From a virus: a stretch of DNA of 40,061 bases. Under the pieces are notes generated by a model. It saw only the letters and a program-made list of their open reading frames with translations. It was not told where the DNA came from and did no database searches. The stretch covers positions 1 to 40,061 of IMG/VR virus record IMGVR_UViG_3300023180_000139; one strand, 5' to 3'. Made by a program: the position numbers and the translations under genes. The stretch's first letter is position 1, and each line of letters opens with the position of its first letter. Below, in pieces: positions 1,095 through 24,901 of this stretch.

Positions 1095-2687
1095 CTATAT
1101 TTTTTGTCCAGTAACCCAATTAATGACTCTTTTTGCAGGATTGTCTATTTCTTTAGTTGTTCTTTCGTTAAAAACATCTTTATCTATTGCGGAACTTTTT
1201 GGAGGTTTAGCCGTAGTAATAGCATACCATAATCCATCTAACAAGTCATCATGTCTACCTTTTGGAAACTCAAACATTTCATCAACTAAGTCTGCGTGTT
1301 CTTTCTTGATAAACATTTTTCTTCGATTGACAATAGGACATAATAATGCTTCTATCCTATCTTCTTTTTTGATACCACTAGGTGGTCGAACTCCTTGCGA
1401 TAAGCCAGGAGCTAATTTTCTATCTTTACCAGCTAATTGATTTACATAATCCTTTACTAAACCTTGAGCACCTACTTTTTCAATATTTACTCTACGTACT
1501 GGATTATATTGTTTAGCATAATCAACAATTCTTTTAGGCATATCATATAAAGGCGAATGTTCTCTATAATAGTCAACAACATAAAAATTACGCTCACTAT
1601 CTACTGCTACTACCATAATAATCTGATAGTCATTCTTAGCGCCTGATTCGTATGCCAAGTCAACTCCCATATAAACATTAACTGGAATAGCAGATTCATC
1701 TATTATCATATAATTAAATCCATTCTTAGATACTAGTTCACCTTTGTAATAATTTAATCTATCTATTTGGAATTTAGCAGTTTCTAAGTCTCTTGCTTCA
1801 TTAAGATACTCTTGTGCAAATTTATGAACAAGACCCATCTCAGTAAATCTTCTTCGAATACTATCTAGTTTTTCTTTTGTAAAATAACTTTGCCATAATG
1901 GAATACCATCAACAATTGCTTTTTTATATAAAACTTCCCAAGCAGACTTTCTATTTTCTTTTTCTGCTTGTAAGTAACCATCATAAACTCCCTGTAAAAA
2001 AGAATCATAATGAACAATAGTACCAATCAACCAAATAGAGCCTTCGTTTTCTTTTGAGTTTTCTAAAGCTGGTTCTACAGTTGACATAACCCATTCTTTA
2101 ATTTCTCTTCTACGTTCAGGTGTTTTAGTATTTAACTCTGATTCAAAGTCGTCTAAAATAATATTAGTATAACGTAATCCTAATTGTGAACGACCACGCA
2201 AACGTTGAGATGTACCTTTTGCTATTACTCTATCACCTCTAGCAGTAGTAAATTCTTTTTCAGTCCATTTACTTCCTTTTAAGTCACCAAAGTAATATTG
2301 CAATGCTGGATTCATATCAATATGATTTTGAATATACTTGATATGGTCTATTGCCTGAGATTGTTCTTCAGATACCCAAGCAATAAATTCTTTCTTTTCA
2401 GGTGGATTAAAATAGAGTTTATATAATAATGCTGTTTTAGCTAATGTTGATTTTGCGTGACCACGCGGCAAGATAATACAAAGTCTTTTATCTTCACCTA
2501 ATAATAAGTTACTTAACTCATATTGATAAGGAGCTGGCGTTGATTTCATAAAGTCTTCTGGTAAAAACATTTGACCAAAAGTAACAATGTCTTTTTTTGC
2601 TAATTCTAATGCTTGTTCCTTTGCAGATAAATCTGGAGGAATAATATTAAAAATCTCTGGCTTCTTCGTCTCTGTATTCTTTTTCAT
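1095..2687 (-). CDS. terL: Terminase large subunit (packaging ATPase-nuclease)
   Basis: 530 residues, normal length for the family. It drives ATP-dependent DNA packaging into the prohead and cuts the concatemer. Walker A is LPRGHAKST (about 73-81) and Walker B with the catalytic acid is NIILDD (about 175-180). The RNase H-like nuclease domain follows: acidic strand VYMGVDLAY (Asp near 343) and the C-terminal KGRHDDLLDG (Asp 480/481/484). Both ATPase and nuclease residues look intact. The ATG at 2687 lies inside the end of the upstream cyclotransferase-like gene (41-base overlap), so the two are probably translationally coupled. The portal gene follows, as usual in tailed phages. Confidence 0.95.
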   Translation of the reverse strand: MKKNTETKKPEIFNIIPPDLSAKEQALELAKKDIVTFGQMFLPEDFMKSTPAPYQYELSNLLLGEDKRLCIILPRGHAKSTLAKTALLYKLYFNPPEKKEFIAWVSEEQSQAIDHIKYIQNHIDMNPALQYYFGDLKGSKWTEKEFTTARGDRVIAKGTSQRLRGRSQLGLRYTNIILDDFESELNTKTPERRREIKEWVMSTVEPALENSKENEGSIWLIGTIVHYDSFLQGVYDGYLQAEKENRKSAWEVLYKKAIVDGIPLWQSYFTKEKLDSIRRRFTEMGLVHKFAQEYLNEARDLETAKFQIDRLNYYKGELVSKNGFNYMIIDESAIPVNVYMGVDLAYESGAKNDYQIIMVVAVDSERNFYVVDYYREHSPLYDMPKRIVDYAKQYNPVRRVNIEKVGAQGLVKDYVNQLAGKDRKLAPGLSQGVRPPSGIKKEDRIEALLCPIVNRRKMFIKKEHADLVDEMFEFPKGRHDDLLDGLWYAITTAKPPKSSAIDKDVFNERTTKEIDNPAKRVINWVTGQKI

Positions 2688-3060
2688 ATACTCTATTCAT
2701 CATAACTAATGTTTTACGTGATAACCAATCACCGTCAGGTACTTCAGTAAACATACTTGAACTTTGCCATAATAATGGACCAGCTACATATACCCAACAT
2801 TTTTCTTTTTCTTTTGTATCATCTAATATGACATCAGCTGTGGTTCTGATATATAAACCATCTCTAATACCTTCATACATATCATATTGATTTAAGTCAT
2901 CTTCAGTAACATCAATTACTTCTACAACAGCACCTTTGCCTTTTGTATTCTTAATTAATGCTGGAAATGATTTAGTACCAGGAAATACAAGACTAAACCC
3001 TTCTATTCGTCCTGTATCTGGATATCCACGTCTTAATGTTCCGTAAACTGCTAGTCTCAT
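2647..3060 (-). CDS. Gamma-glutamylcyclotransferase/AIG2-like protein
   Basis: 137 residues. The N-terminus MRLAVYGTLRRGYPDTG carries the YGTLR-x-G substrate loop of the GGCT/AIG2 fold, and the Glu of DMYEGIRDGLYIR near 80-85 is placed like the family's catalytic acid. Family members release 5-oxoproline from gamma-glutamyl amines or peptides. The gene lies between the two terminase genes, overlapping the upstream zinc-ribbon gene by ATGA and terL by 41 bases. Its position says little about its role, but the same phage carries a class II glutamine amidotransferase and an amidoligase at 9168-12039, and GGCT/AIG2 proteins are known neighbours of Amidoligase_2 enzymes. Substrate unknown. Confidence 0.82.
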   Translation of the reverse strand: MRLAVYGTLRRGYPDTGRIEGFSLVFPGTKSFPALIKNTKGKGAVVEVIDVTEDDLNQYDMYEGIRDGLYIRTTADVILDDTKEKEKCWVYVAGPLLWQSSSMFTEVPDGDWLSRKTLVMMNRVYEKEYRDEEARDF

Positions 3061-3284
3061 GATTCTCCTATCTGGTCTGGTATTCCTACTTCTGATATCT
3101 CAAAATCAACTCCATATATCGTTAAACAATTAATGCATTTGATATGCGTAGTATCTTTTTTGTTTATATTCCAAATATAAACACCAGTATCTTTTAATTT
3201 ACTATGGCAGAAATGACAGCGTTTACTTTTCGCTATCTCTTTTAACTTCCGCCAGTTTTTCGTATTTAGATTCTTGAATTGCAT
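3057..3284 (-). CDS. Small zinc-ribbon protein
   Basis: 75 residues, function unknown. Two cysteine knuckles, CHFC near 23-26 and CINC near 50-53, are spaced like a single zinc ribbon; the N-terminus is basic (KNWRKLKEIAKSKR). It overlaps the end of the small terminase gene by 62 bases and the next gene by ATGA, so it sits inside the packaging operon. Possible roles are DNA or RNA binding in packaging, but nothing in the sequence decides this. Confidence 0.7.
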   Translation of the reverse strand: MQFKNLNTKNWRKLKEIAKSKRCHFCHSKLKDTGVYIWNINKKDTTHIKCINCLTIYGVDFEISEVGIPDQIGES

Positions 3285-3984
3285 TTAATTGCTCCTTTGT
3301 AAAACCTTGGAATACTGTTACAGATTCAGTAGTCTTTTCTGTATCCATCATTCCAGATATTTTCATTAATGTAGTTAATGCTGTTAATTTATCTCTATCT
3401 GAAGAATCAATCTTATCAATAATATTCCTCATTGCTTCTAATAGATAAGTAGGAGTAATTTCTGCTTCATTTAGATATTTATCTATTTCTTCTCTAATCA
3501 ATTTTTTTACCCTATCGGTTTTTAATAATAATTTTGCTTGAGACTTTGCATATTCTTCATTCTTGCTTGGAAAAGCTTTCATATAAGCTTCTACAACGTC
3601 ATCGCCTTTTGCAACATACTTACCAAATAAAAATTCTTTATCTGTAGTATGCTTTCTGTTTCTCTTCCTAACTGAAGGTGATTCACCGTCAGTAGCAAAA
3701 GTATGCATATTTGTTTTCATATCTCCTTCAATAAATATTTTAGGACTACAAATATACGAACCCATAATAGTTCTGATATAACTAACATCTTTCTTTCTGT
3801 CTTTTTTGTTTAGAATACCTAAATACAATACTTGACAGACTTGACCATCGTCAGTTTCTATCCAATCTCCCTTGTTAGAATGACGCCAATCAGTAACTAA
3901 AGATACGTTTGGTTGATATCTTCGAAACTCATCGACGTCATCATACAAGTAATGAGTGACACCTTTTACAATGCGTTCTCTCAT
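3223..3984 (-). CDS. terS: Terminase small subunit
   Basis: 253 residues. TerS recognises the packaging start site and regulates TerL. From about residue 110 the protein has EFLFGKYVAKGDDVVEAYMK, a VVEAYMKAFPSKNEEYAKSQ stretch, LLLKTDRVKKLIREEID and a later helical region. This matches the helix-turn-helix plus oligomerisation layout of phage small terminases (AYMKAFP followed by a repeated-helix segment and VKKLI). The first 100 residues are an extra beta-rich domain (YLYDDVDEFRRYQPN, DDGQVCQVLYLG) not usual in short TerS proteins. It lies two genes upstream of terL. No clear Shine-Dalgarno before the ATG. Confidence 0.75.
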   Translation of the reverse strand: MRERIVKGVTHYLYDDVDEFRRYQPNVSLVTDWRHSNKGDWIETDDGQVCQVLYLGILNKKDRKKDVSYIRTIMGSYICSPKIFIEGDMKTNMHTFATDGESPSVRKRNRKHTTDKEFLFGKYVAKGDDVVEAYMKAFPSKNEEYAKSQAKLLLKTDRVKKLIREEIDKYLNEAEITPTYLLEAMRNIIDKIDSSDRDKLTALTTLMKISGMMDTEKTTESVTVFQGFTKEQLNAIQESKYEKLAEVKRDSEK

Positions 3985-5701: not shown

Positions 5702-5883
5702 TAAAACTCCTCCTGGTCGTCCATATCGATTCTATCTTCTAAACTACGGAATACTTCGTATGTTTTTTGTTCTTCACGTTTTTCTTCTAGTTTTTTAAGA
5801 TTTTCTAGTAGTTGATTGTTTTCTTCACGCAATGTTTGCATTATTCTTTTTTCAGTCTCTTTATCCATTAGCTTATTTACCAT
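5701..5883 (-). CDS. Hypothetical coiled-coil protein
   Basis: 60 residues (or 55 from the in-frame ATG at 5868), not recognised. Nearly all helix with heptads: RIMQTLREENNQLLENLKKL, then KREEQKTYEVF and an acidic end. The ATG at 5883 lies inside the end of the metallopeptidase gene. The 3' end carries GAGGAG, which also serves as ribosome site for the next gene. Confidence 0.55.
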   Translation of the reverse strand: MVNKLMDKETEKRIMQTLREENNQLLENLKKLEEKREEQKTYEVFRSLEDRIDMDDQEEF

Positions 5884-6178
5884 CTCTTTGTGCCTTATGC
5901 CATAGAAAGTCTGCTACACCTAATTGGAATAATCCATTACTAATTGCTTCGATTTCACGTTCATTATGTTCTAAACCAGTATTATAGTAGACTGCATGCA
6001 GTACTTCGTGCATTAATGTTTCTTTCTGCCTAGAATCTTCTATTTCTTCATTAATAAGGATAATATTGTTCTTAACAAGGTGTCTACCATACAATTCTTT
6101 ATCATTATCTTCATGTTCTAACGGTGTAACCATAATATTATAGTTATGACCACCTATATTTAACTCCATTTTTTTCAT
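5873..6178 (-). CDS. Small HExxH zinc metallopeptidase-like protein
   Basis: 101 residues from the ATG at 6178, chosen over the in-frame ATG at 6190 because GGGAG lies 5 bases before it. LMHEVLHAVYYNTGL (HEVLH at about 57-61) is a zinc metallopeptidase helix. A glutamate cluster EREIEAISN about 12-16 residues later could supply the third ligand. The size and layout resemble minimal ImmA/IrrE- or SprT-like phage proteases. First gene of the leftward packaging operon. Targets could be host regulators or phage proteins; not decidable here. Confidence 0.72.
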   Translation of the reverse strand: MKKMELNIGGHNYNIMVTPLEHEDNDKELYGRHLVKNNIILINEEIEDSRQKETLMHEVLHAVYYNTGLEHNEREIEAISNGLFQLGVADFLWHKAQRDGK

Positions 6179-6210
6179 TAATACTCCCATATCTTTAGTT
6201 GTGTATGCAA

Positions 6211-7463: not shown

Positions 7464-7470
7464 ACAAAAG

Positions 7471-7507
7471 ATACCCTGGGGCTAACAACCCTGGGGTATT
7501 TTTTTTT
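7471..7507 (+). terminator. Rho-independent terminator
   Basis: Stem arms 7471-7481 and 7489-7499 (11 base pairs, two G-T pairs, GC-rich core) with a 7-base loop, followed directly by nine Ts. It ends the short unit of the two genes at 6950-7463. Confidence 0.85.
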
Positions 7508-7670: not shown

Positions 7671-8042
7671 TTAGACTTCTAAGATAATTTTAGTGTAGTA
7701 TCTAGGAAATTTGACTTTTCCTTCTACTTCACGAGCTAAGGAAGGTAATTTTCTTACCTTCTTATTTATTGACGAAAGAACACTTGTAAGGCTTTTGACT
7801 TCTTGTTTAAGAAGTTCGGCCAACTCTTTATCCTTTTCGCTTGTTTCGGAATTCGCCAAAAGTTCGTCAATTGTTCCGAGCAACTGACCTTCGTTCGTTT
7901 TTGGCAATACTAACTCAACACCCAAAGTTGAAGCAAGTTCATTCAAATTAATGTCTTGGACTTGACCTTCAGAATTATGAGCTTTGCGGGAAACTTCGGC
8001 GACAATTCCCGCTAGTATTGATTTGTTTATCTTGTTTGCCAT
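7671..8042 (-). CDS. Lone reverse-strand protein, possible regulator or moron
   Basis: 123 residues, not recognised. It begins MANKINKSILAGIVAEVSRK, has an ELASTLGVELVLP segment, then a long charged helix with heptads (ELAELLKQEVKSLTSVLSSI) and a basic end. It is the only reverse gene between 6.2 and 19 kb. Hairpins of the AGCTAGAC/GTCTAGCT type stand on both sides. A weak reverse promoter (TTGCAC, 17 bases, TAAAAT) may lie just upstream. The layout is that of a self-contained moron or a regulator reading against the early operon; function is inferred only from context. Confidence 0.6.
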   Translation of the reverse strand: MANKINKSILAGIVAEVSRKAHNSEGQVQDINLNELASTLGVELVLPKTNEGQLLGTIDELLANSETSEKDKELAELLKQEVKSLTSVLSSINKKVRKLPSLAREVEGKVKFPRYYTKIILEV

Positions 8043-8136
8043 ATCTTATTTTAGTGAATAATAAGGAAAAGTGCAACTTTTTTTATGACTTTTTAATCTT
8101 TTTTTGACCGAAGTTCCTAGATGGTCAAACCAATTA

Positions 8137-8192
8137 AAGCTAGACTATAGCTCTTAAAGCTAGACTAAGTCTAGTCTAGCTCATTACCCCCG
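8137..8192 (+). repeat. GCTAGACTA repeat block, right copy
   Basis: AAGCTAGACTA occurs at 8137-8147 and 8157-8167 (20 bases apart). CTAGACTAAGTCTAG is a 15-base palindrome, and GTCTAGCTCATTACCCCCG (8174-8192) repeats the segment at 7558. Another AAGCTAGACTA lies at 8765-8775, before the gene at 8789. Five copies in the non-coding DNA of 7.5-8.8 kb suggest operator sites. The remainder of 8043-8307 holds a 7-base inverted repeat (TTTGACC...GGTCAAA, near 8103-8129) and a TTGACA at 8209. Confidence 0.5.
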
Positions 8193-8307
8193 ACAAAAAA
8201 CATAGCGCTTGACATTAGTTCTTTTGTTTGTCTCGTGGAAAATGCGTATATTATGGACGTGGGAAAGTATACCAAAATATCAACCTTACAGACAAAAAGG
8301 ATACAAA

Positions 8308-8709
8308 ATGACTAAAACATACAAAAAGACAATCAACGAGAAATGCCCTTGTTGCAAACAATGGACAGAAAAGGAAGTTGAGGTCAAAATGGAACTAGGT
8401 CTCGAGTTCATAGCTATTAGAGACAATAATCATAAAGTCGAATTGACTTGTATTGGACATAAGACACAACAAGGACAATTAGATGGTGTCGTGTTAGACG
8501 AGTTTCCTTTGTTCAGTATTGAGCAAGCAGACGTTACAATGCAAATATTGTCTAAGAAGTTTCACTTGACTGGAACATACATTACGATTGATAGTAATTA
8601 TATGGACAAAATAGAGATACACAACAAAAGACACGTAATTGATGGAACTAGTATTGACGATTTGTTGAAAACGTCTAGAAAAATGTATAGACAAAGTAGA
8701 TACAGATAG
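8308..8709 (+). CDS. Hypothetical protein with N-terminal zinc knuckle
   Basis: 133 residues from the ATG at 8308, chosen because AAAAAGGA lies 7 bases before it; the longer frame upstream lacks such a site. CPCCKQW near residues 13-19 could bind a metal, but only one clear knuckle is seen. The rest is a mixed alpha/beta sequence with a basic C-terminus (KTSRKMYRQSRYR) that could bind nucleic acid. Not recognised. Confidence 0.65.
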   Translation: MTKTYKKTINEKCPCCKQWTEKEVEVKMELGLEFIAIRDNNHKVELTCIGHKTQQGQLDGVVLDEFPLFSIEQADVTMQILSKKFHLTGTYITIDSNYMDKIEIHNKRHVIDGTSIDDLLKTSRKMYRQSRYR

Positions 8710-8788
8710 ACAGATGACAACCGATTGTCCAGAGATTATCAATAGACATTTTTATAAAAATAATAAGCTAGACTAAGGGCTATATACA

Positions 8789-9010
8789 ATGATTATATTA
8801 AAACCAAATAAGTATGGTATTAGAAAAGAATTGACCGAAAAAGAACAAGAACGTTTAGCATATAATAGACGTGCTTGGTTATTAAGACAAAAGTATAAAA
8901 ACATAACACACGATATGTTAAAATTATTTTCAGATTATAGTAGAATAGAAGAATTAAAATTGTCAAGACGCGCAAAAATTGCAGTTATTACTATCGGGAC
9001 AGAAGAATGA
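8789..9010 (+). CDS. Hypothetical small basic protein
   Basis: 73 residues, not recognised. Rich in Arg/Lys (ELTEKEQERLAYNRRAWLLR, then LKLSRRAKIAVITI), probably helical. An AAGCTAGACTA repeat lies 13 bases before the ATG, and the sequence between is ATA-rich with no clear Shine-Dalgarno. Confidence 0.55.
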   Translation: MIILKPNKYGIRKELTEKEQERLAYNRRAWLLRQKYKNITHDMLKLFSDYSRIEELKLSRRAKIAVITIGTEE

Positions 9011-9189
9011 AGAATTTAGAAATAGCGACAAATGTATACCCTAAGCAGTCACTTAGTCGAACGACTGAACGTTTTAATCCTTTCACGTTGGTATATATTT
9101 GTCGCGCAAAGATTAGTAGACAAATGTCTATTAATACAAGCAAACAAAAACAAAAAGGAGGTTTCATATGTGTGGAATATATGGAATAG
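9007..9189 (+). CDS. Doubtful small ORF in the amidotransferase leader
   Basis: 60 residues, starting within the stop of the previous gene (ATGA) and running 22 bases into the amidotransferase gene. No recognised motif and weak start signal. The same DNA carries two perfect inverted repeats (AGTCGAACGACT at 9055-9066, TAGACAAATGTCTA at 9117-9130), so the stretch may instead be a regulatory leader. Kept because ATGA coupling is frequent in this genome. Confidence 0.3.
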   Translation: MKNLEIATNVYPKQSLSRTTERFNPFTLVYICRAKISRQMSINTSKQKQKGGFICVEYME

Positions 9190-10277
9190 CAAAGTCGCCA
9201 AAACCTTATACTAGCAGACAATTTCAAATTGTCAGAAAGGTAGTAAGGGAAATAGCAATAGCGAGTGAGACACGTGGTGCGCATTCGTCAGGTATTGCTA
9301 GAATTGGCGCTAACCCTAGAATATACAAATCACTTCTTCCTTCAAGTAAATTTGTAGACACTAAAGAATATAATGAAGCTGTCAAATCACTACATAACGA
9401 CACTTATATTCTCTTAGGACATACGCGATTTGCGACAGAGGGCGCCATCATAAAGTCAAATGCACACCCTTTCAGAGTGGGCGAGACAATCGGCGCGCAT
9501 AATGGTTGTGTTTATAACATAGCCGAAATGCAGACTACTTTAGACAAACAATGTCCGGTAGATAGTCAATTGATATTCAAGGCAATAGATGACAATGATA
9601 ACATACAAGACGCAGTTCGCGATTTTGATAGTGATTTTGCTTTGTCTTTTGTAAAGAAAAATCCTATGGTATTGTATTTATGTCGCGAGTCAAATCGTCC
9701 TTTACACGTAGCGTATGTCCCTCAACTAAAGACATTATTTTATGCGAGTGAACAACGTTTCATTGAAGACGCGTTTGATAAGTATGGAATTAAAGTTGAG
9801 ATAATTGGTCTAAACAAAAATACATTATATACTTATGATGTCGCCAAGTTTGATGATGTCAAAAGTAATGTGCAAAAGACAGAGTTTGAATACGAGTCTA
9901 GAGTTTACCAATTCAACATTAATAACTATGCTAACAAATGGAACTCATTAGACAATTATCAATATGATGACAAATACCTAAACTATTGGTATGGAGATTT
10001 ATATGACGATTGTTATGAAGCGCCATTAGACGCAGACGAATTCGCCGAATGGGAAGACGAACAAAAGAATATGCTTTGTCTAGATTTTGGTGGTCGTCCA
10101 AGCAGTTGGTGGTTTGACAAATCAGAATGCGAATGGTATCATTGGAGTCAAACAACAAACGAGATACTAACCCTTCCTCAAATTATTCAAAAGTGGGAAG
10201 ACAATGGTGTCTCTTTTGACTTAGATGACAATAATGAACAACTATTATTGGAGGAAAATTATGAATCCAAGAGATAG
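9168..10277 (+). CDS. Class II glutamine amidotransferase (Ntn-hydrolase)
   Basis: 369 residues. It starts MCGIYGIA, so Cys2 becomes the N-terminal nucleophile after Met removal. RGAHSSG (36-42), LGHTRFATEG (83-92), NAHP (98-101), HNGCVYN (111-117) and an Asp near 132 match the glutamine-binding and oxyanion residues of GlmS/PurF-type glutaminases. It should therefore release ammonia from glutamine. The usual second domain (SIS or phosphoribosyltransferase) is absent; instead there are about 130 acidic, Tyr/Trp-rich residues of unknown fold. AAGGAGG precedes the ATG at 6 bases, a strong site. It overlaps the amidoligase gene by 17 bases, so the two are probably made together. Confidence 0.88.
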   Translation: MCGIYGIAKSPKPYTSRQFQIVRKVVREIAIASETRGAHSSGIARIGANPRIYKSLLPSSKFVDTKEYNEAVKSLHNDTYILLGHTRFATEGAIIKSNAHPFRVGETIGAHNGCVYNIAEMQTTLDKQCPVDSQLIFKAIDDNDNIQDAVRDFDSDFALSFVKKNPMVLYLCRESNRPLHVAYVPQLKTLFYASEQRFIEDAFDKYGIKVEIIGLNKNTLYTYDVAKFDDVKSNVQKTEFEYESRVYQFNINNYANKWNSLDNYQYDDKYLNYWYGDLYDDCYEAPLDADEFAEWEDEQKNMLCLDFGGRPSSWWFDKSECEWYHWSQTTNEILTLPQIIQKWEDNGVSFDLDDNNEQLLLEENYESKR

Positions 10278-12039
10278 AAGGGAAGACATAAATCAAGAAA
10301 TAGACAATGAAACACTATATTGTTATCATTGTTCTGTTGACTTAAAGTCAGAATCAGACTATTCATTGATTAATGACGAACCTGTTTGTGAAGATTGTCA
10401 TCACGAAAGATATACAAATTGTTATGAATGTGAAGAGCCTGTTCCAAATGACGATACATATTATTCAGACTATACGTCAGAATATTATTGTAGTGATTGT
10501 TATTGGGAAAATCATACAGAATGTTACGAATGTGGTGAACAAGGACATTTTGACGCAATGGTCTGGCACGAACCAAGTGACGATTACTATTGTGATGATT
10601 GTGTTCCGAGAAAAGAACACCCTGATTGGAATGTCTATTCTAATTCATTTGTTCAAACTAATGACCATTTTGTCAATCCAAGAACAGATGGTTATATAAA
10701 AGACACATTCAAAGCAATAACGTCAAAACGTTATGTTGGTCTAGAAGTAGAAGTTAACAATAGAAGTAGTATTGACTATTACGATACAAGAGACGAATTG
10801 AGTTATGTAGTCAATGACACAAGAGACAAAAGAATAACACGAGCTGGTGGATTTGAATATACTCGTAGATTAGACGTTGTCAATGATAGTAGTGTAACTT
10901 CTTCAGAACACCCTAATGGTTGTGAAATTGTCTTACAACCAAGACGTGGCGACATAATGTTAAAAGACCTTAAATCTAGTTTAGACTATATGTATCATAC
11001 AGACAATTACTATGTAAGTGTCAAATGTGGTCTTCATCTTCACGTAGATACTAGAGACTATGATTGGAAACATTTTGCAGTTTTGTCGCTTTTTACAAAG
11101 TTGATAGAACCTTACATATATAATATGGTTCCATCTAGTCGGTATGAAGGACGTTGGTCAAAACCTGTTAGTCAGTCAATGAATGACTTTGCCTACATAG
11201 AAGGACGAGATAGTTTTATTGACTTTTGGTATGACAATGGTAGTTTTACATATGACAAATACAATAGTAAAAGATATCATGGACTAAATCTACATTCTCA
11301 TTTCCAAGCTAATCAAGGGACAGAAATACGCTATCATTCTGGAACAATGAATTATTCAAAAATAAAACATTGGATTATTTTATGGACGAATATCATTGAT
11401 AAATGTTACGACATTGCAGAACGTTTAGACAATAGCACGTTTGATTCATTTGGAGAAACTAGTATATACGAAAGTCTAGTTAGACCACCAAAGTCAATTT
11501 ACGACATAATAAAACGATATAGTATCAATGAAGTCAATCATTATAATATCGACCAATATTATAAAGATAGTGAATTGTTGAGACGTTATCTTAAGTTAGA
11601 GAAATTAGACAAACCATACATCATACAACCAATGCTTGATTATGTGACAAAACATAGACACAAGCAACCAATGATGAGTTTGTCAGATATGTTTGAATTG
11701 TTTGAAATACCTTATTTCACACAAAAATATATCAAAACTCGTATGCGTAGTCTTAGAGTAAATAATGAACGTAGCAGGGCTTTTGACAATGTGACTAGTA
11801 TTGTCAAATTTGACGCAGACAAGTTAGTCTTCAAATATGTAGATAACTTTAGCAAGAGGTTTGCGACAATAGACAATCGGATTCTTAAAGGTGAAGAAGG
11901 TCTAATGAGTAGTTATGATACATTTGGTTACTTAAAAAATAACTATAATATCTATTGGTCATTAGACAATTACATACTCAATAGTCAAGTGCCAATAGAA
12001 TCGGTATCGCTTAGACTTCAAAGGTTGTATATGCCTTAG
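10261..12039 (+). CDS. Amidoligase_2-like enzyme with N-terminal zinc-finger array
   Basis: 592 residues from the ATG at 10261, chosen because GGAGG lies 6 bases before it. Residues 20-115 carry six CxxC knuckles (21/24, 43/46, 54/57, 77/80, 88/91, 111/114), a regular LIM/treble-clef-like array. The catalytic part shows YVGLEVEV (158-165), NGCEIVLQP (219-227), KCGLHLHVD (255-263), and LNLHSHF...GTEIRYHSGT (342-362). These are the signatures of the glutamine-synthetase-like carboxylate-amine ligases of Amidoligase_2. Such enzymes use ATP to join a carboxylate to an amine or ammonia. The partner just upstream can supply ammonia or process glutamine. Residues 420-592 are unassigned. The zinc array may hold a protein or nucleic-acid substrate. 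Confidence 0.83.
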   Translation: MNPRDRREDINQEIDNETLYCYHCSVDLKSESDYSLINDEPVCEDCHHERYTNCYECEEPVPNDDTYYSDYTSEYYCSDCYWENHTECYECGEQGHFDAMVWHEPSDDYYCDDCVPRKEHPDWNVYSNSFVQTNDHFVNPRTDGYIKDTFKAITSKRYVGLEVEVNNRSSIDYYDTRDELSYVVNDTRDKRITRAGGFEYTRRLDVVNDSSVTSSEHPNGCEIVLQPRRGDIMLKDLKSSLDYMYHTDNYYVSVKCGLHLHVDTRDYDWKHFAVLSLFTKLIEPYIYNMVPSSRYEGRWSKPVSQSMNDFAYIEGRDSFIDFWYDNGSFTYDKYNSKRYHGLNLHSHFQANQGTEIRYHSGTMNYSKIKHWIILWTNIIDKCYDIAERLDNSTFDSFGETSIYESLVRPPKSIYDIIKRYSINEVNHYNIDQYYKDSELLRRYLKLEKLDKPYIIQPMLDYVTKHRHKQPMMSLSDMFELFEIPYFTQKYIKTRMRSLRVNNERSRAFDNVTSIVKFDADKLVFKYVDNFSKRFATIDNRILKGEEGLMSSYDTFGYLKNNYNIYWSLDNYILNSQVPIESVSLRLQRLYMP

Positions 12040-12057
12040 AATCTAAACGACAAAACG

Positions 12058-12099
12058 CTAGGGATAGACAATATTTTTATTGTTTGTCCCTAGTTTTTT
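12058..12099 (+). terminator. Strong Rho-independent terminator
   Basis: Arms 12058-12072 and 12079-12093 give a 15-pair stem (CTAGGGA core, two G-T pairs) with a 6-base loop, followed by six Ts and a second T-run. It closes the amidotransferase-amidoligase unit. The following 120 bases are A-rich, contain AGCTCGAT twice (near 12127-12143) and TTGACT at 12163, and otherwise show nothing clear. Confidence 0.88.
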
Positions 12100-12221
12100 G
12101 TATTTTTTTAAAAAAAATAAAAAAAAAGCTCGATGCAGCTCGATAAAAAGCGACAAAAAAACTTGACTGCGACATTTATTTTGTTGCATTTTAGTAAATT
12201 TATAATTAAACTCAGCAAGAT

Positions 12222-12371
12222 ATGAACAAGTGGTGGATAAGCATTAAACAATTAACAATATACGAACTAGGACGTATGGTGGTAAACAATCCACTAAGAT
12301 TCTTATGGTTATATTTTATTTGCGATAATGGCAAGCACTTATCCACCGCTACAATTTGGAGAATACAATGA
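12222..12371 (+). CDS. Small 49-residue protein, translationally coupled
   Basis: Open frame MNKWWISIKQLTIYELG... of 49 residues whose TGA overlaps the ATG of the next gene (ATGA). It is basic and aromatic, with a hydrophobic centre (NNPLRFLWLYFI). No good Shine-Dalgarno. The same DNA holds a 9-base inverted repeat (GTGGATAAG near 12232, CTTATCCAC near 12337), so part of the signal may be structural. Not recognised. Confidence 0.45.
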   Translation: MNKWWISIKQLTIYELGRMVVNNPLRFLWLYFICDNGKHLSTATIWRIQ

Positions 12372-12574
12372 TAAGAAATGATGAATGGATAACTATTAAA
12401 ATTGATTATTATACCGACCTAGAAACAGGAATCAAGATGTATGATTTTGAAGAAATGGAAGCTCAATTTGTAGAACATATGATGGAATTACGTAATGATA
12501 TGGACGAACAAATAGATGCTTGGAACGAAAAACAACTAGACTATGCTATGGATAGTATGACTAACGATGAGTAA
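12368..12574 (+). CDS. Hypothetical acidic protein
   Basis: 68 residues from the ATG at 12368, chosen because GGAGA lies 7 bases upstream. It is strongly acidic (DYYTDLETGIKMYDFEEMEA) and helical, with no recognised domain. It overlaps the next gene by 8 bases. Confidence 0.6.
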   Translation: MIRNDEWITIKIDYYTDLETGIKMYDFEEMEAQFVEHMMELRNDMDEQIDAWNEKQLDYAMDSMTNDE

Positions 12575-12893
12575 TTATTTAAAATTTATATCATATCAAG
12601 TCTTTGCAGACAAGTATAAATTATATACCCCTGCAATTGTTTGTCAGAATTGTGGTCAGTCGTGTGGCGGCGACGAGCCTAAGAAGATTGTAGAAAATTG
12701 TAATCTATGTGAGGAGGAAACTATGGATACAGACGAAGGAGTAAAACTTGTCAACAGAGAAATTGGCAGTTTACGTTCTGATTGTTGTGGAGGTTATCCC
12801 GCTTCAGAACTAATAAATGATATAGATGAATACGTCGCTATATGTAGCGAGTGTCAAGATTGGGCAGACTTTTATTATGAGGAGGAAGAATGA
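12567..12893 (+). CDS. Zinc-binding protein with four cysteine clusters
   Basis: 108 residues. Cysteine knuckles CQNCGQSC, CNLC, CC and CSEC are spaced like two zinc ribbons or one treble clef pair, and the C-terminus is acidic (DFYYEEEE). Function unknown. Its acidic tail makes nucleic-acid binding less certain; it may bind a protein. Its start overlaps the previous stop and its stop overlaps the next start (ATGA). Confidence 0.6.
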   Translation: MSNYLKFISYQVFADKYKLYTPAIVCQNCGQSCGGDEPKKIVENCNLCEEETMDTDEGVKLVNREIGSLRSDCCGGYPASELINDIDEYVAICSECQDWADFYYEEEE

Positions 12894-13138
12894 GTTTAAC
12901 AAATAAAGAACACGAACAATTAATAACTTTACTTGAAAAAGCAAATGTCATTTGGCAATACTATGAAAAAGAACATATAGCTGATGACTTATCTGATAAA
13001 GAATGGGAAGAGTTTGTAGCTTTATATCAAGATAACTTTTGCGAAGGTGCATATTTTGTTGTCGATGATTTACTTGGAGATTATAGATATGAATTAGAAA
13101 ATAAGGAGAAAAAAAATAATGAAACCATTAGACAATAG
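12890..13138 (+). CDS. Hypothetical acidic helical protein
   Basis: 82 residues, not recognised: MSLTNKEHEQLITLLEKANV then acidic helices. GAGGAGGAA lies just before the ATG, within the previous gene. It overlaps the GroES gene by 20 bases. Confidence 0.6.
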   Translation: MSLTNKEHEQLITLLEKANVIWQYYEKEHIADDLSDKEWEEFVALYQDNFCEGAYFVVDDLLGDYRYELENKEKKNNETIRQ

Positions 13139-13379
13139 AATAATAGTTCACGAAGAAGTTGCTAAAGACACCACTGATAGTGGTATCATACTAGCAGATA
13201 GCAACAAAAAAAGAAAATGTGTCGGTAAGGTTGTAGCAGTCGGACCGAAAGTTAATGTAATCAAAGTTGGAGACAGTGTTATGTATCCCGAATATAGTGG
13301 AACAACAGTTGTCGCTAACAATGTAGTAAACTTAATATTAAGAGAGACAGAAGTTATGGCAATATTGGAGGACAAATGA
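13119..13379 (+). CDS. groES: GroES-like co-chaperonin
   Basis: 86 residues. MKPLDNRIIVHEEVAKDTTD is the family start, followed by the mobile-loop region SGIILADSNKKRK, then GKVVAVGPKVNVIKVGDSVM and a C-terminal ETEVMAILEDK. Length is slightly below bacterial GroES (about 95). The protein should cap the host GroEL chamber during folding of phage proteins, as T4 gp31 does for its capsid. No GroEL gene is present in the window. AAGGAG lies 8 bases before the ATG. The gene sits among early/recombination genes rather than head genes. Confidence 0.9.
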   Translation: MKPLDNRIIVHEEVAKDTTDSGIILADSNKKRKCVGKVVAVGPKVNVIKVGDSVMYPEYSGTTVVANNVVNLILRETEVMAILEDK

Positions 13380-20056: not shown

Positions 20057-23000
20057 TTAATCTTTTCTATATCTATCCGTAACCTTGTCCAGATTCATTA
20101 TTTTAGTAAGTCCTTTAAAAAATTTTCTAATAGAACCGTCACTTTTTAATTCTTCTGTATTATTCCAATCAATGTCTTCAAGTTTCATTTCATATTTATC
20201 TTTATTTTTATTAACTTCTTGTTCCATTTTTTTAAATAAACTCTGATTACTAAAAGGGTTTCTTGTGCTAGTATCAAAAGGGTTAATTGCTAATCCTTTA
20301 AATTTTTCTACTTGACTAGAAGCATTCCATGCTTGAGCTAATTCTAAGGCTCTTTCGCTATTTCCAGCAAACAAATATTGTTGTATGTCTTCGTAAACTC
20401 TTCCTCTTTCGTTCTCAGCTGCATCTCTTTCCATTCCAGGAACTGCTGGTCCTCCAACAATAGGAACATTCCATTCACTATATAAAAATCTTTTCATAAA
20501 ATTATTAAATCCACTACCAAGAACTGGACCCAAATTTTTCATAATTTTTCTAGCTTGTATATTAAGAGGGTCTTCGTTTGCATATAAATTTGTTACTGCA
20601 GACCAACCAGTTTTCAATAATCTTTCCATATCGTCAAACATTACAGGCTTAACTGCAAACTCAATAGCATTTAAAGGTTCTGAATCTCTGATGATGTCTC
20701 CATAAATACCAACAACACCAGCACCTACAATATTATCAACAAATTCTTTACCACTTCTTGTTTGTAAAAGTTTTGTTTTTGCTTCTAATCCATAAAAATT
20801 TTCATCTCCAGAAAGAGCTTGTTTCAATTGTTGAACTCCCCAAATAGCTAAACTTCCTCCAAATGCTCCTGAAGCTGCTATTTGTAATGGTTGAATTATG
20901 TTTCCATGAACCAATTCAAATTCAACCATATCTCTAGCATACTTAGCTTGTCTTATAGGGAATCTTTTAAATAGAGTTGCTGGTTTAGTAAATGAATCTG
21001 CAAAACCAAGAGCATCTAAAGCTAAGTCTCTTCCTTGTTGAGAAAACTGAGCATAAGTTTCCATTCCTCTTAAAATCTTTCTTTTTAAATCTATAAGGTC
21101 TGGTCCATATGTTCTATTTAAAATAGCATCTTTATTTTTTAATAACTCATCTGCATCTAAATTAAAATATTTTCTTAATTTTGCTTTTGCATAAGCTTTT
21201 CTATTCCCTAATAATGTTTGAGTATATAACCCTGGAATTAAATCAGCGAAACCTTTTTGACCATCATACATTTTTACTAGCTTGATAATATATTCTTCTG
21301 CTGCAGCACCAGAAACAACTTTATTCATTAAGTTAACCATCATAAAAGGTTTACCAACAAATTCAGAACCTGTTCTCATAATATCTTTGATGCCAGCCTC
21401 TCCCTTAGCGAGCTGTACCCATAATTTTGTTAAATCACCTTCAAGGTTAACTAATTTAGCTTGACCAATTTGCAAAGCTCTGTTACCTCCTAAAAGCTCG
21501 TCCCAAAGAGATAAACCTGTAATACCTGAAGATTTTATCATATCTCTTAACACTGGATTCGTTGCATAATTATAAAGACCTTTTACAACTGGACCAACTC
21601 CTAATTGAGGTAAAGCAGAAATAAATATCTGAGTTAAATTTGGTATAACTGCTGTACCTAAAGAAATTTTAGTAGTCATTTCAAATTGTGATGCTGTTTG
21701 AGCTGCTCTTGTAAATAAGTTATTTCTTGTGATAGAATCTTCTCCAGTTAAATGTTCTTTAAGAATTGTAACCGCATCACGTTCTTTTATCGCAAACGTA
21801 GGAACTTTTCCAGCTGCTACTCTAGCTTTTTCTGAAGCACTGTCTCCCATTCTTCTACCTAATGCAGCTCCTAGTCCCTGTAGTTCAGCTGTTTCAGGTA
21901 TTCTTTCTATTAGTTTAGTTAAAAATGCAGCATCTGGCATAAAAGATTTAGATAATTCAATTCTTTTTGTAGCTCCACCAATATAATCAGTAAAGAGTGT
22001 TATTAAATTTTTATCTAACATCTCTCTTTTAGTTTTTGCTAAAACAGTAACAACGTCTACATTAGTAGATTTTTGAGAACCTAGAATTTTTCTTGATTTT
22101 TCAAGAGGGGCATATGGTCTAAATCCATCACTATATATATTAAACATCATATTAGCCCAAACATCATAATCTGGAACATCAGAAAGAGTAGAAGGATTTT
22201 TAAGCATTTCATTTTTTGTAGCATTAAAAATATCAGCAAAAGCTCTTTGTTTTGCATCTGGAGCCTTTGCCATCTTTTCTATAAAATCAGAAATAGTTTC
22301 TCGTAATGCTTCTTTTTCTGCATTTGTTTTACCTCTTAAGGCAACTAAAGAATCCAATTCTAATTCATTTGTCAACTTGCTAATCTTTTCATTTAAACTA
22401 ATCATATTAGAATATATAGTATCTCTAATATCTTTTTTGATAACAAAAGGCATATACCATTGTTTTCTACCAGCTACAGCAATTTTTGCACTTAAAGCAT
22501 CGTCATATACCTCGTCCATAAGTGTTTGTATTCTAGGAAATATATCTAATCTTCTTTGTAAGAACGCAACTTCTTTTTCACTAAGACCACCTTTATTAAT
22601 TAGTCTGGTGGTATTTTTTTTCATTGTTTGATAATAATTGTCTGGATTTGCATCAAGTTTTAAATAGTCATCAAAACCACTTGTAATTTTAGTTCCATTG
22701 CTTAAAGTAACACTTTCTCCAACTATCCATTTTTCTAAAAATTCATTTTTAAAAGCATTATATCCTACTATTTTTTGTGCAAACTTTGGAAGCGATTTAG
22801 CTGATAAAATAGCAGTGTCCATTCCAAATATTTTTTGTAAATTATTTACCCTTTCAATTGACCTTTGTACAACATTTCTATCTGTTAAAGCAATCAATTT
22901 TATAGCAGTTCTTGCTTCAGGAGATTGAACGTCATTACCAATACTTCCAAATAATGATTTTGCAAAATTTAATGTTGTAGATTCTCCAGCTATTCCAGTT

Positions 23001-24901
23001 AAATTATCTAACTGTGCACCAAAATTCTTTTGTATAAAGGTTTCAAAATTTCTCATAAACTGAACATCTTGAAGTCTCTCAGTTACTAGTCTCATTTCTA
23101 TATCAGACATATTTTGAATTTTTGGCATATCAGCTTTTTTATCTAACCATTTTGTAATTCCATATTGATTTGCAACATCTTCAATAGCCTTTTTATAATC
23201 TCCGCTTTCTAAACCTGCAAAGTTTCTATTTGCATCTCTTCTTAAGTCTCTTAAAGCTTTTCTTCTAACTCTAGTTAATTGAAAAAAAGATTTATTTCTT
23301 GATTCAAATCTTTTCATTAGACCAGGTTGAGATGTATAAAATTTTAAAAACAATTCTGAATTAGCTTCGTCTAATATATATTTATTTCTACCTACTTGAA
23401 CTTCAAAAGTAAATCCACCATTTTCAGTATATTTTAAGCTACTTCTATCAATTCTTGCATTGACAGATGCAGGTATTTCTGTCACTTCTGATGCAATTTT
23501 TGGTGCAACTTTACCTGCTTTTGTAGTTTCTGTAGTTATTTGTTTTCCAAATATTTCTACGTTTGCATATGCACCGCTAGCCATACCTGCAGGTAACTGT
23601 TTTTTATTAATATCTTTTATTGTTAAAGCAACTTGTTCAGTTACGATAGGGTCTCCAGGTCTTCCTGTAATTGCAGCTAAAGGTTCTTGAAATCTTTGAA
23701 AAACTTGTGATTTTCTTCTAAGGAATGATTGCAATCCAACAGATTCTGGAATAATTTCTTTTATTTCTTTTTTGTTTAATCCTCTTAGAATTTTTTCTTC
23801 TTCCGCAACAGGTTTTAAAGTAATTCCAGTATCTATACCAAATATTTTTACTTCACCAGTTTCTGATAAAACTTTTCCTTTTTGAAGTCTATATATTTCT
23901 CTACTTTTGTTAAAAACATTTCTAGGTAATCCAGCTGCAGCTACAATTCCACTAGCTAATATGAAAGTTCCAAGAGTAGCATCTGGTTGTTCTGATGATA
24001 TATCTCTTCCATAAATCATAGGACTAGCCATCATAACACTTCCTATTTCAGCAGCTATACCTCTTTCAATGTTTCTTGCTTTTTCTAAAGGTTCTAGTGT
24101 TCTAGTAACTGCACCAGATGGTGTTGGTATTTTTAACGTGGTAGGCTTTAAATATCTACCTGCTCCAAAACCTATAGAGCCTATAGCTCCTACTCCATAT
24201 CCTCTTGCATAATCTATTGGATTAGATTGTTTAAATAAATCTCCTAAAACAGCCCGATATCTTTCTCCCTCATCTTCAATTTCTTGATATTTAGATATAT
24301 CAAATTCAGAATTGACAATAGCTTCTTTAGTTTTAGCTACACTAGAATACATTCCTTCTTGAGCTGCAAAAGCTCCAGCTTCAACAAACGCTATTCTAGA
24401 TACCTCTCCAACAAATTCTTTTTCCAATGATTTACTTAATAAACCTTTTTGGATTAATTTCTTTGCAACAAATTCAGTTGCTTTTCTTCCTCCAGCAATT
24501 TGAGCTCCTTTACCAATCAATCCACCACCAACTAACAAAGCAACGTTTTCTGGAGTTGGATATAAAAAAGATAACATTTGAACTCCAATGTCATACATAA
24601 CACCTTTGTCCATTGTTGCTCTATCTTGAACATTATATTTTTTTCTTCCATTGATAATTTCGTATGCAACTCCACTAATCGTATTATTGTATGCATCTTT
24701 AAAAATAGGAAAGGTTTTCATAAGCCAGTTTTCTTTTTCAGATTCAGTAGTGTCGACAGATTGTGAAAAATCTACCTTAGAATAATCAGTGGTGTCTACT
24801 TTTGTAGATTCTGGAGTAGAAGTTCCCCAACCAGGCAAATTTGAATAATCTTGCTGTAATAGTTCTTCTAAACTTTTTTTTTGTTGGTTTTGTTCAGGCA
24901 A
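20057..24901 (-). CDS. Giant internal virion (ejection) protein
   Basis: 1,614 residues starting at TTG with AAAGGAG six bases before it. There is a charged N-terminal 60 residues, then Gly-rich hydrophobic segments (VALLVGGGLIGKGAQIAGG near 120; ARGYGVGAIGSIGFGAGRYL near 235; GTFILASGIVAAAGLP near 310) and a long, mostly helical body with many Lys/Arg. Size, position last in the virion operon and the Gly-rich membrane-like parts fit the large ejection proteins of podoviruses (T7 gp16 type), which form a conduit into the cell. I see no transglycosylase motif in it; that activity is at 27715-28260. Family not confirmed. Confidence 0.65.
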   Translation of the reverse strand: MPEQNQQKKSLEELLQQDYSNLPGWGTSTPESTKVDTTDYSKVDFSQSVDTTESEKENWLMKTFPIFKDAYNNTISGVAYEIINGRKKYNVQDRATMDKGVMYDIGVQMLSFLYPTPENVALLVGGGLIGKGAQIAGGRKATEFVAKKLIQKGLLSKSLEKEFVGEVSRIAFVEAGAFAAQEGMYSSVAKTKEAIVNSEFDISKYQEIEDEGERYRAVLGDLFKQSNPIDYARGYGVGAIGSIGFGAGRYLKPTTLKIPTPSGAVTRTLEPLEKARNIERGIAAEIGSVMMASPMIYGRDISSEQPDATLGTFILASGIVAAAGLPRNVFNKSREIYRLQKGKVLSETGEVKIFGIDTGITLKPVAEEEKILRGLNKKEIKEIIPESVGLQSFLRRKSQVFQRFQEPLAAITGRPGDPIVTEQVALTIKDINKKQLPAGMASGAYANVEIFGKQITTETTKAGKVAPKIASEVTEIPASVNARIDRSSLKYTENGGFTFEVQVGRNKYILDEANSELFLKFYTSQPGLMKRFESRNKSFFQLTRVRRKALRDLRRDANRNFAGLESGDYKKAIEDVANQYGITKWLDKKADMPKIQNMSDIEMRLVTERLQDVQFMRNFETFIQKNFGAQLDNLTGIAGESTTLNFAKSLFGSIGNDVQSPEARTAIKLIALTDRNVVQRSIERVNNLQKIFGMDTAILSAKSLPKFAQKIVGYNAFKNEFLEKWIVGESVTLSNGTKITSGFDDYLKLDANPDNYYQTMKKNTTRLINKGGLSEKEVAFLQRRLDIFPRIQTLMDEVYDDALSAKIAVAGRKQWYMPFVIKKDIRDTIYSNMISLNEKISKLTNELELDSLVALRGKTNAEKEALRETISDFIEKMAKAPDAKQRAFADIFNATKNEMLKNPSTLSDVPDYDVWANMMFNIYSDGFRPYAPLEKSRKILGSQKSTNVDVVTVLAKTKREMLDKNLITLFTDYIGGATKRIELSKSFMPDAAFLTKLIERIPETAELQGLGAALGRRMGDSASEKARVAAGKVPTFAIKERDAVTILKEHLTGEDSITRNNLFTRAAQTASQFEMTTKISLGTAVIPNLTQIFISALPQLGVGPVVKGLYNYATNPVLRDMIKSSGITGLSLWDELLGGNRALQIGQAKLVNLEGDLTKLWVQLAKGEAGIKDIMRTGSEFVGKPFMMVNLMNKVVSGAAAEEYIIKLVKMYDGQKGFADLIPGLYTQTLLGNRKAYAKAKLRKYFNLDADELLKNKDAILNRTYGPDLIDLKRKILRGMETYAQFSQQGRDLALDALGFADSFTKPATLFKRFPIRQAKYARDMVEFELVHGNIIQPLQIAASGAFGGSLAIWGVQQLKQALSGDENFYGLEAKTKLLQTRSGKEFVDNIVGAGVVGIYGDIIRDSEPLNAIEFAVKPVMFDDMERLLKTGWSAVTNLYANEDPLNIQARKIMKNLGPVLGSGFNNFMKRFLYSEWNVPIVGGPAVPGMERDAAENERGRVYEDIQQYLFAGNSERALELAQAWNASSQVEKFKGLAINPFDTSTRNPFSNQSLFKKMEQEVNKNKDKYEMKLEDIDWNNTEELKSDGSIRKFFKGLTKIMNLDKVTDRYRKD

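Follow-up and report, generated by a model that had tools for sequence, protein, structure and literature searches.

The window, the whole 40,061-base stretch analysed, is a complete IMG/VR record from an uncultured phage (GC about 30-37%). It carries a glutamine amidotransferase (GATase) gene overlapping a gene for a putative amidoligase with an N-terminal zinc array and, on the opposite strand amid the terminase genes, a gamma-glutamyl cyclotransferase (GGCT) gene. The set is a stripped-down relative of a published phage cassette. The idea itself is not new; what is new here is a smaller set of genes, a zinc array on the ligase and a GGCT gene placed away from the pair. At a probability of roughly 0.5, the adjacent pair is read as a two-subunit glutamine-dependent amide ligase, with the zinc array guiding it to a peptide or protein carboxylate and GGCT as an auxiliary enzyme. 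Other window genes include those for DnaB helicase, RusA and tail fibres. No tRNA genes and no RNA elements were found in the window. The features referred to below are as follows.

1095-2687 (-): terminase large subunit (TerL), phrog_38 5.6e-82; downstream neighbour of GGCT
2647-3060 (-): GGCT/AIG2-like gamma-glutamyl cyclotransferase, 137 aa; YGTL 6-9 and E63 conserved
3057-3284 (-): small CxxC/CxxC zinc-ribbon-like protein, 75 residues; between GGCT and TerS
3223-3984 (-): terminase small subunit (TerS), phrog_51 6.6e-10; upstream of GGCT and its zinc-ribbon neighbour
9168-10277 (+): class II (Ntn) GATase, 369 aa; nucleophile Cys2, R87, N112-G113, D132
10261-12039 (+): Amidoligase_2 protein, 592 aa; its first 17 bases lie within the end of the GATase gene
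10321-10602 (+): N-terminal zinc array of the amidoligase, six CxxC in residues 21-114, giving three C4 fingers, each similar to half a LIM domain
10732-11388 (+): predicted amidoligase (GS/GCS-like) catalytic domain; ExE 162/164, E222, HxH 259/261, R338, E355-x-R357
12057-12094 (+): intrinsic-terminator-like hairpin, 17 pairs with a T tail; directly after the amidoligase gene, closing the pair

The GATase, amidoligase and GGCT genes

The GATase reading frame is preceded by AGGAGG and was matched by the GATase_6 profile at 1.8e-13, exceeding the curated cut-off. A cysteine directly after the initiator methionine and an Arg/Asn-Gly/Asp glutamine pocket place it in class II, and Cys2, HTR (R87), NAHP, HNG (N112-G113) and D132 were invariant across 28 orthologues, in agreement with the complete catalytic motifs described in the original prediction. 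The top PDB matches of the structure model (pLDDT 77) were GlmS, PurF and AsnB, followed at a lower level by EgtC. The glutaminase domain of GlmS was matched at 7.6e-12 with a TMt of 0.66, consistent with an Ntn fold. A small C-terminal domain spans about residues 286-345.

The program-made list of reading frames starts the amidoligase at 10225 (604 aa). The ATG at 10261, six bases behind a GGAGG at 10250-10254, reproduces both the 592 residues and the exact 17-base overlap that had been predicted. Amidoligase_2 (PF12224) was matched over residues 158-376 (7.6e-18, 65.7 bits against a cut-off of 22) and by all 30 aligned members, and the catalytic residue set was invariant among homologues down to 23% identity. 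The first PDB match of the structure model (pLDDT 76) was E. coli YbdK (1r8g, E 6.6e-5, probability 0.99), followed by glutamine synthetases and Dop. Whole-chain TM-scores were low (0.2-0.3), probably due to extra domains and limited alignment depth; the fold assignment was nonetheless consistent, and the model supports a GS/GCS-like fold with ExE, HxH and ExR active-site residues. The glutamine-synthetase-like fold and the retention of catalytic residues in homologues, on which the original prediction had been staked, were thus both found. In profile comparisons the HxH and ExR motifs lined up with those of YbdK, and ExR with GlnA; these alignments were used as support only, because the scores were not significant. 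A single-sequence search against solved structures gave no match, and the amidoligase profile reached LIM proteins only. The Amidoligase_2 family is itself named 'putative', and ATP-dependent ligase activity is here a predicted one.

The LIM matches fall in the zinc array. Its CxxC pairs start at residues 21, 43, 54, 77, 88 and 111, and the spacing alternates between about 20 and about 7, giving three C4 fingers. Each cysteine is retained by 28-30 of 30 orthologues, and no other residue of the array region is invariant. LIM chains were the best profile matches for the array among solved structures (E 0.0024), LIM structures appeared in the fold search with the amidoligase model (E about 0.02), and Pfam LIM was above cut-off in the distant homologue L114. 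Pfam LIM (PF00412) was not reported for the window protein; the array is termed LIM-like because the spacer between its fingers is about 7 and that of a canonical LIM domain is 2. The six predicted CxxC knuckles are therefore present and conserved, and are better read as three LIM-type C4 fingers. An annotated viral 'LIM domain containing protein' (A0A6J7X2B6) matched the amidoligase model, and the combination of zinc array and Amidoligase_2 has precedents in annotated viral proteins; among the papers searched, none dealt with a LIM-bearing phage amidoligase. Invariant zinc cysteines in an otherwise variable region fit a target-binding scaffold. By analogy only, the LIM-type array argues for a protein or peptide partner.

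The GGCT gene, at the position originally predicted, was matched by PF06094 (2.4e-14, 54.4 bits against a cut-off of 22.8), and Y6-G7-T8-L9 and E63 were invariant. The zinc-ribbon-like protein beside it is of nearly fixed length, lay between GGCT and TerS in 54/54 GGCT-bearing loci, and gave no family match. Identity to the window proteins across relatives was 33-45% for the amidoligase (29 orthologues), 46-63% for the GATase and 63-84% for GGCT (19 orthologues), with catalytic residues still invariant. In six close pairs dN/dS was 0.20-0.39 for the amidoligase, 0.08-0.27 for the GATase, 0.04-0.24 for GGCT and 0.02-0.06 for TerL; from these values all three genes are under purifying selection, which is weakest on the ligase.

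Several other features of the window were recorded. A strong terminator-like hairpin (7466-7504, +) sits between the divergently oriented gene blocks. A small Peptidase_M78 (IrrE-like) metallopeptidase gene (5873-6190, -) was kept in nearly all relatives. A GroES-like co-chaperonin gene (13119-13379, +; Cpn10 1.3e-19) was present in 8/60 related loci at varying positions. A 1614-residue reading frame (20057-24901, -) without a Pfam or PHROG match was matched in 7 related loci, most loci ending earlier. Downstream of the amidoligase a cysteine-rich 108-residue protein is encoded (12567-12893, +); its C-terminus in relatives is either acidic (EEE) or of unrelated sequence (...DEYHRILDGGRC), a pattern suggestive of an exchange of the gene's 3' portion. 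Small neighbours were considered as modification substrates and dropped: the 108-residue protein often ends in EEE, yet variants with unrelated tails exist.

Distribution and gene order

Viral contigs were scanned with the GATase as query, giving 47 loci (1 identical contig and 46 divergent), and with an amidoligase profile, giving 66 loci on contigs partly shared with the GATase scan. Gene-order counts were taken from 60 representative loci, which form one lineage, so that the counts are not independent events. In these loci the order GATase-amidoligase (plus strand) was fixed and the two genes were adjacent in 53; the order TerL-GGCT-zinc ribbon-TerS (minus strand) was likewise fixed, with TerL and GGCT adjacent in 53. 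All three genes were present in related uncultured contigs wherever the contig was long enough, bearing out the expected co-occurrence. Two scans of 84,980 genomes with narrow patterns gave no confirmed cellular relatives.

Beyond the window family, a GATase-fold gene immediately followed each of the distant amidoligases L108-L115 (mostly 23-29% identity), the reverse of the window order. Ligase and GATase were adjacent in 9/9 distant phage pairs, with a spacing of -65 to +6 nt. Contig L112 carries two amidoligase-GATase pairs in tandem (7865-12597); the first of its ligases is a shorter protein of 314 aa whose ligase domain starts at residue 69, and the second has an N-terminal CxxC region. 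A zinc array joined to Amidoligase_2, as in the window, was present in L108-L110 and L112-L114, and the GATase was next door in L108-L114; those seven contigs differ from the window in placing the amidoligase before the GATase, in their 23-29% identity and in that no GGCT was found.

All 22 viral records with a ligase that were searched gave a GATase_6 match (E <= 0.001), and in 16 the match exceeded the curated cut-off. GGCT was present in 14/14 window-family records and in one of eight distant records (G008, below cut-off); in the seven distant records that keep the ligase-GATase pair it was not found. The COOH-NH2 ligase (PF14395) was found in none of the 14 window-family records and was found in G008. 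With the PaP3 protein as query, a PaP3-type ATP-grasp was found in 0/14 window-family records, which may be incomplete, and in both controls (PaP3 and G008); a RimK profile for ATP-grasp gave no matches but is insensitive, having missed the PaP3 control. G008, with COOH-NH2 ligase, PaP3-like ATP-grasp and sub-cut-off GGCT, holds the full LUZ24-type cassette. Because the GATase is constant over the 22 records while the other three vary, ligase and GATase are the tightest unit in the window-family branch, and GGCT, second ligase and ATP-grasp are optional additions. The earlier view of GATase and amidoligase as a functional unit is strengthened by this adjacency, near and distant. The cyclotransferase proposed as their partner does co-occur in related phages, but the seven distant records show it to be less firmly tied to the pair than the two genes are to each other, and GGCT is a less constant partner than the GATase. 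GGCT recurs in other amidoligase phage genomes (Waltz, PaP3, NatCom and an Alcaligenes phage), and in NatCom it adjoins the amidoligase. No GATase_6 was found for the amidoligase phages NatCom (W04) and Porphyromonas (W05), and on that account the ligase family does not always need a GATase.

Relation to known cassettes and enzymes

The original prediction knew of no worked-out function for the pair in a phage, and rightly stated that Amidoligase_2 genes typically lie near GATase or AIG2-like genes. That association is published, and the ground is less new than was presented: the cassette and a proposed role are in print (Iyer 2009, as cited in PMC10580990; PMC5498523; PMC11945000). In phage UFV-P2, COOH-NH2_lig, Amidoligase_2, GATase_6, ATP-grasp and AIG2/GGCT are tabulated within 6 kb (PMC3890496). 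In PSA-HP1/RIO-1-like phages the genes are termed a 'peptidoglycan modification cassette' and credited with blocking superinfection (PMC5498523). The superinfection role was repeated elsewhere and lysis preparation added as an idea (PMC11945000), and cassette functions were described as still to be explored (PMC10580990). The published guess on the target, a prediction, is a cell-wall peptide whose alteration would act on competing phages or lysins. No altered host peptidoglycan and no biochemical test of the cassette are reported in PMC3890496, PMC5498523, PMC11945000 or PMC10580990.

The cassettes of LUZ24/PaP3, RIO-1/PSA-HP1, phiEco32, PA11 and tf share with the window Amidoligase_2, a class II GATase and GGCT in one genome (PMC5498523, PMC11945000, PMC3890496). 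In the LUZ24/RIO-1 type, amidoligase and GATase are among the early genes, likewise in the window, and the same division of labour is proposed. That type usually includes an ATP-grasp and a COOH-NH2 ligase, whereas the window family is without both; the window ligase has a zinc array and the window GGCT sits with terminase genes. Closest in content is Arthrobacter phage Waltz (gp94-96, MG099950), a bare trio of GGCT, amidoligase and GATase with no ATP-grasp annotated nearby, as in the window; the Waltz trio is adjacent on one strand, however, and its 338-aa amidoligase lacks a zinc array. A LIM-type array with amidoligase, as in the window, is found in uncultured Caudovirales (BFVD A0A6J7X5D3, A0A6J7X2B6).

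Among cellular enzymes, E. coli YbdK (GCS2) and glutamine synthetase have in common with the window ligase the predicted GS/GCS fold and the HxH and ExR motifs; there is no score-detectable homology, and they are without zinc array and GATase partner. Ergothioneine synthesis also employs a GCS-fold ligase, EgtA, and an Ntn GATase-fold enzyme, EgtC, in one pathway, resembling the window pair; EgtC differs in being a hydrolase at a later step, not a bound subunit.

Proposed reaction, alternatives and significance

In the favoured reading glutamine would be hydrolysed by the Ntn glutaminase through its Cys2 nucleophile, freeing ammonia. Using ATP, the GS/GCS-fold amidoligase would convert a carboxylate into an acyl phosphate and couple it to the GATase-derived ammonia or a small amine. 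Substrate binding would fall to the LIM-like array, with a peptide or protein as the likeliest substrate, a proposal drawn from the array's LIM likeness and from a variable surface on a fixed zinc frame. GGCT, as an auxiliary enzyme, would remove gamma-glutamyl groups as 5-oxoproline. The two-subunit ligase is favoured because the genes are inseparable and the nearest GATase folds (GlmS, PurF, AsnB) are ammonia-delivering enzymes; ammonia delivery is a putative role, as the matches of the GATase model also include EgtC, which hydrolyses gamma-glutamyl compounds. Also counted in favour of this reading are the invariant catalytic sets, the purifying selection on all three genes and the failure to find a second LUZ24-type ligase or a PaP3-type ATP-grasp in the window-family records. 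The cell wall as a possible target is inherited from the literature, and no wall-related gene was found next to the GATase-amidoligase pair.

In a different chemistry, a GCS/YbdK- or PuuA-like ligase would couple glutamate through its gamma-carboxylate to an amine of a peptide, polyamine or protein, and an EgtC-like GATase and GGCT would both remove or trim gamma-glutamyl groups. The GATase, amidoligase and GGCT families all recognise gamma-glutamyl amides, and NatCom has ligase and GGCT without the GATase. The GATase is nevertheless physically inseparable from the ligase, which a dedicated eraser need not be, its nearest matches are ammonia donors, and distant phages retain it and not GGCT. 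Such a scheme is considered unlikely; what weight it keeps comes from two structural matches, EgtC for the GATase and YbdK, a GCS2 that ranks first for the ligase fold. Under either chemistry GGCT could be independent of the pair, a packaging-operon gene acting on gamma-glutamyl metabolites or host glutathione and co-occurring through shared descent. Its opposite strand, its place beside TerL in 53 loci, its absence from the matches in seven distant pair-bearing records and a family-wide synteny that makes co-occurrence phylogenetically dependent make this a serious contender; its recurrence in Waltz, PaP3, NatCom and the Alcaligenes phage, far beyond one lineage, leaves it just short of even odds. 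Nucleic acid, named among the original targets, gained no support. The array could bind it, and the ligase genes map to the early replication region, but hypermodification of phage DNA or RNA is very improbable: the window proteins scanned included no recognisable thymidylate hydroxylase, base kinase or other hypermodification enzyme of known type; the matches of the array are to LIM domains, which are mostly protein binders and by analogy point to protein or peptide; and related cassettes are linked in print, as a prediction, to wall chemistry.

A more specific and speculative form of the two-subunit ligase, rather doubtful at present, is a phage protein-modification machine: a glutamine-fed ligase whose LIM-like adaptor picks one host or phage protein, or a wall precursor, to amidate or gamma-glutamylate, the variable face of the array setting the target. 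If true, this would be a minimal two-subunit system with a substrate distinct from that of the LUZ24 cassette. Phage amidoligase cassettes have been in print since 2009 or earlier, with the same guess repeated and apparently no biochemical test made. As a two-gene core that is conserved in distant phages and does without the other ligases, the pair is the simplest setting for resolving reaction and substrate, and the zinc array could serve as bait for the target.
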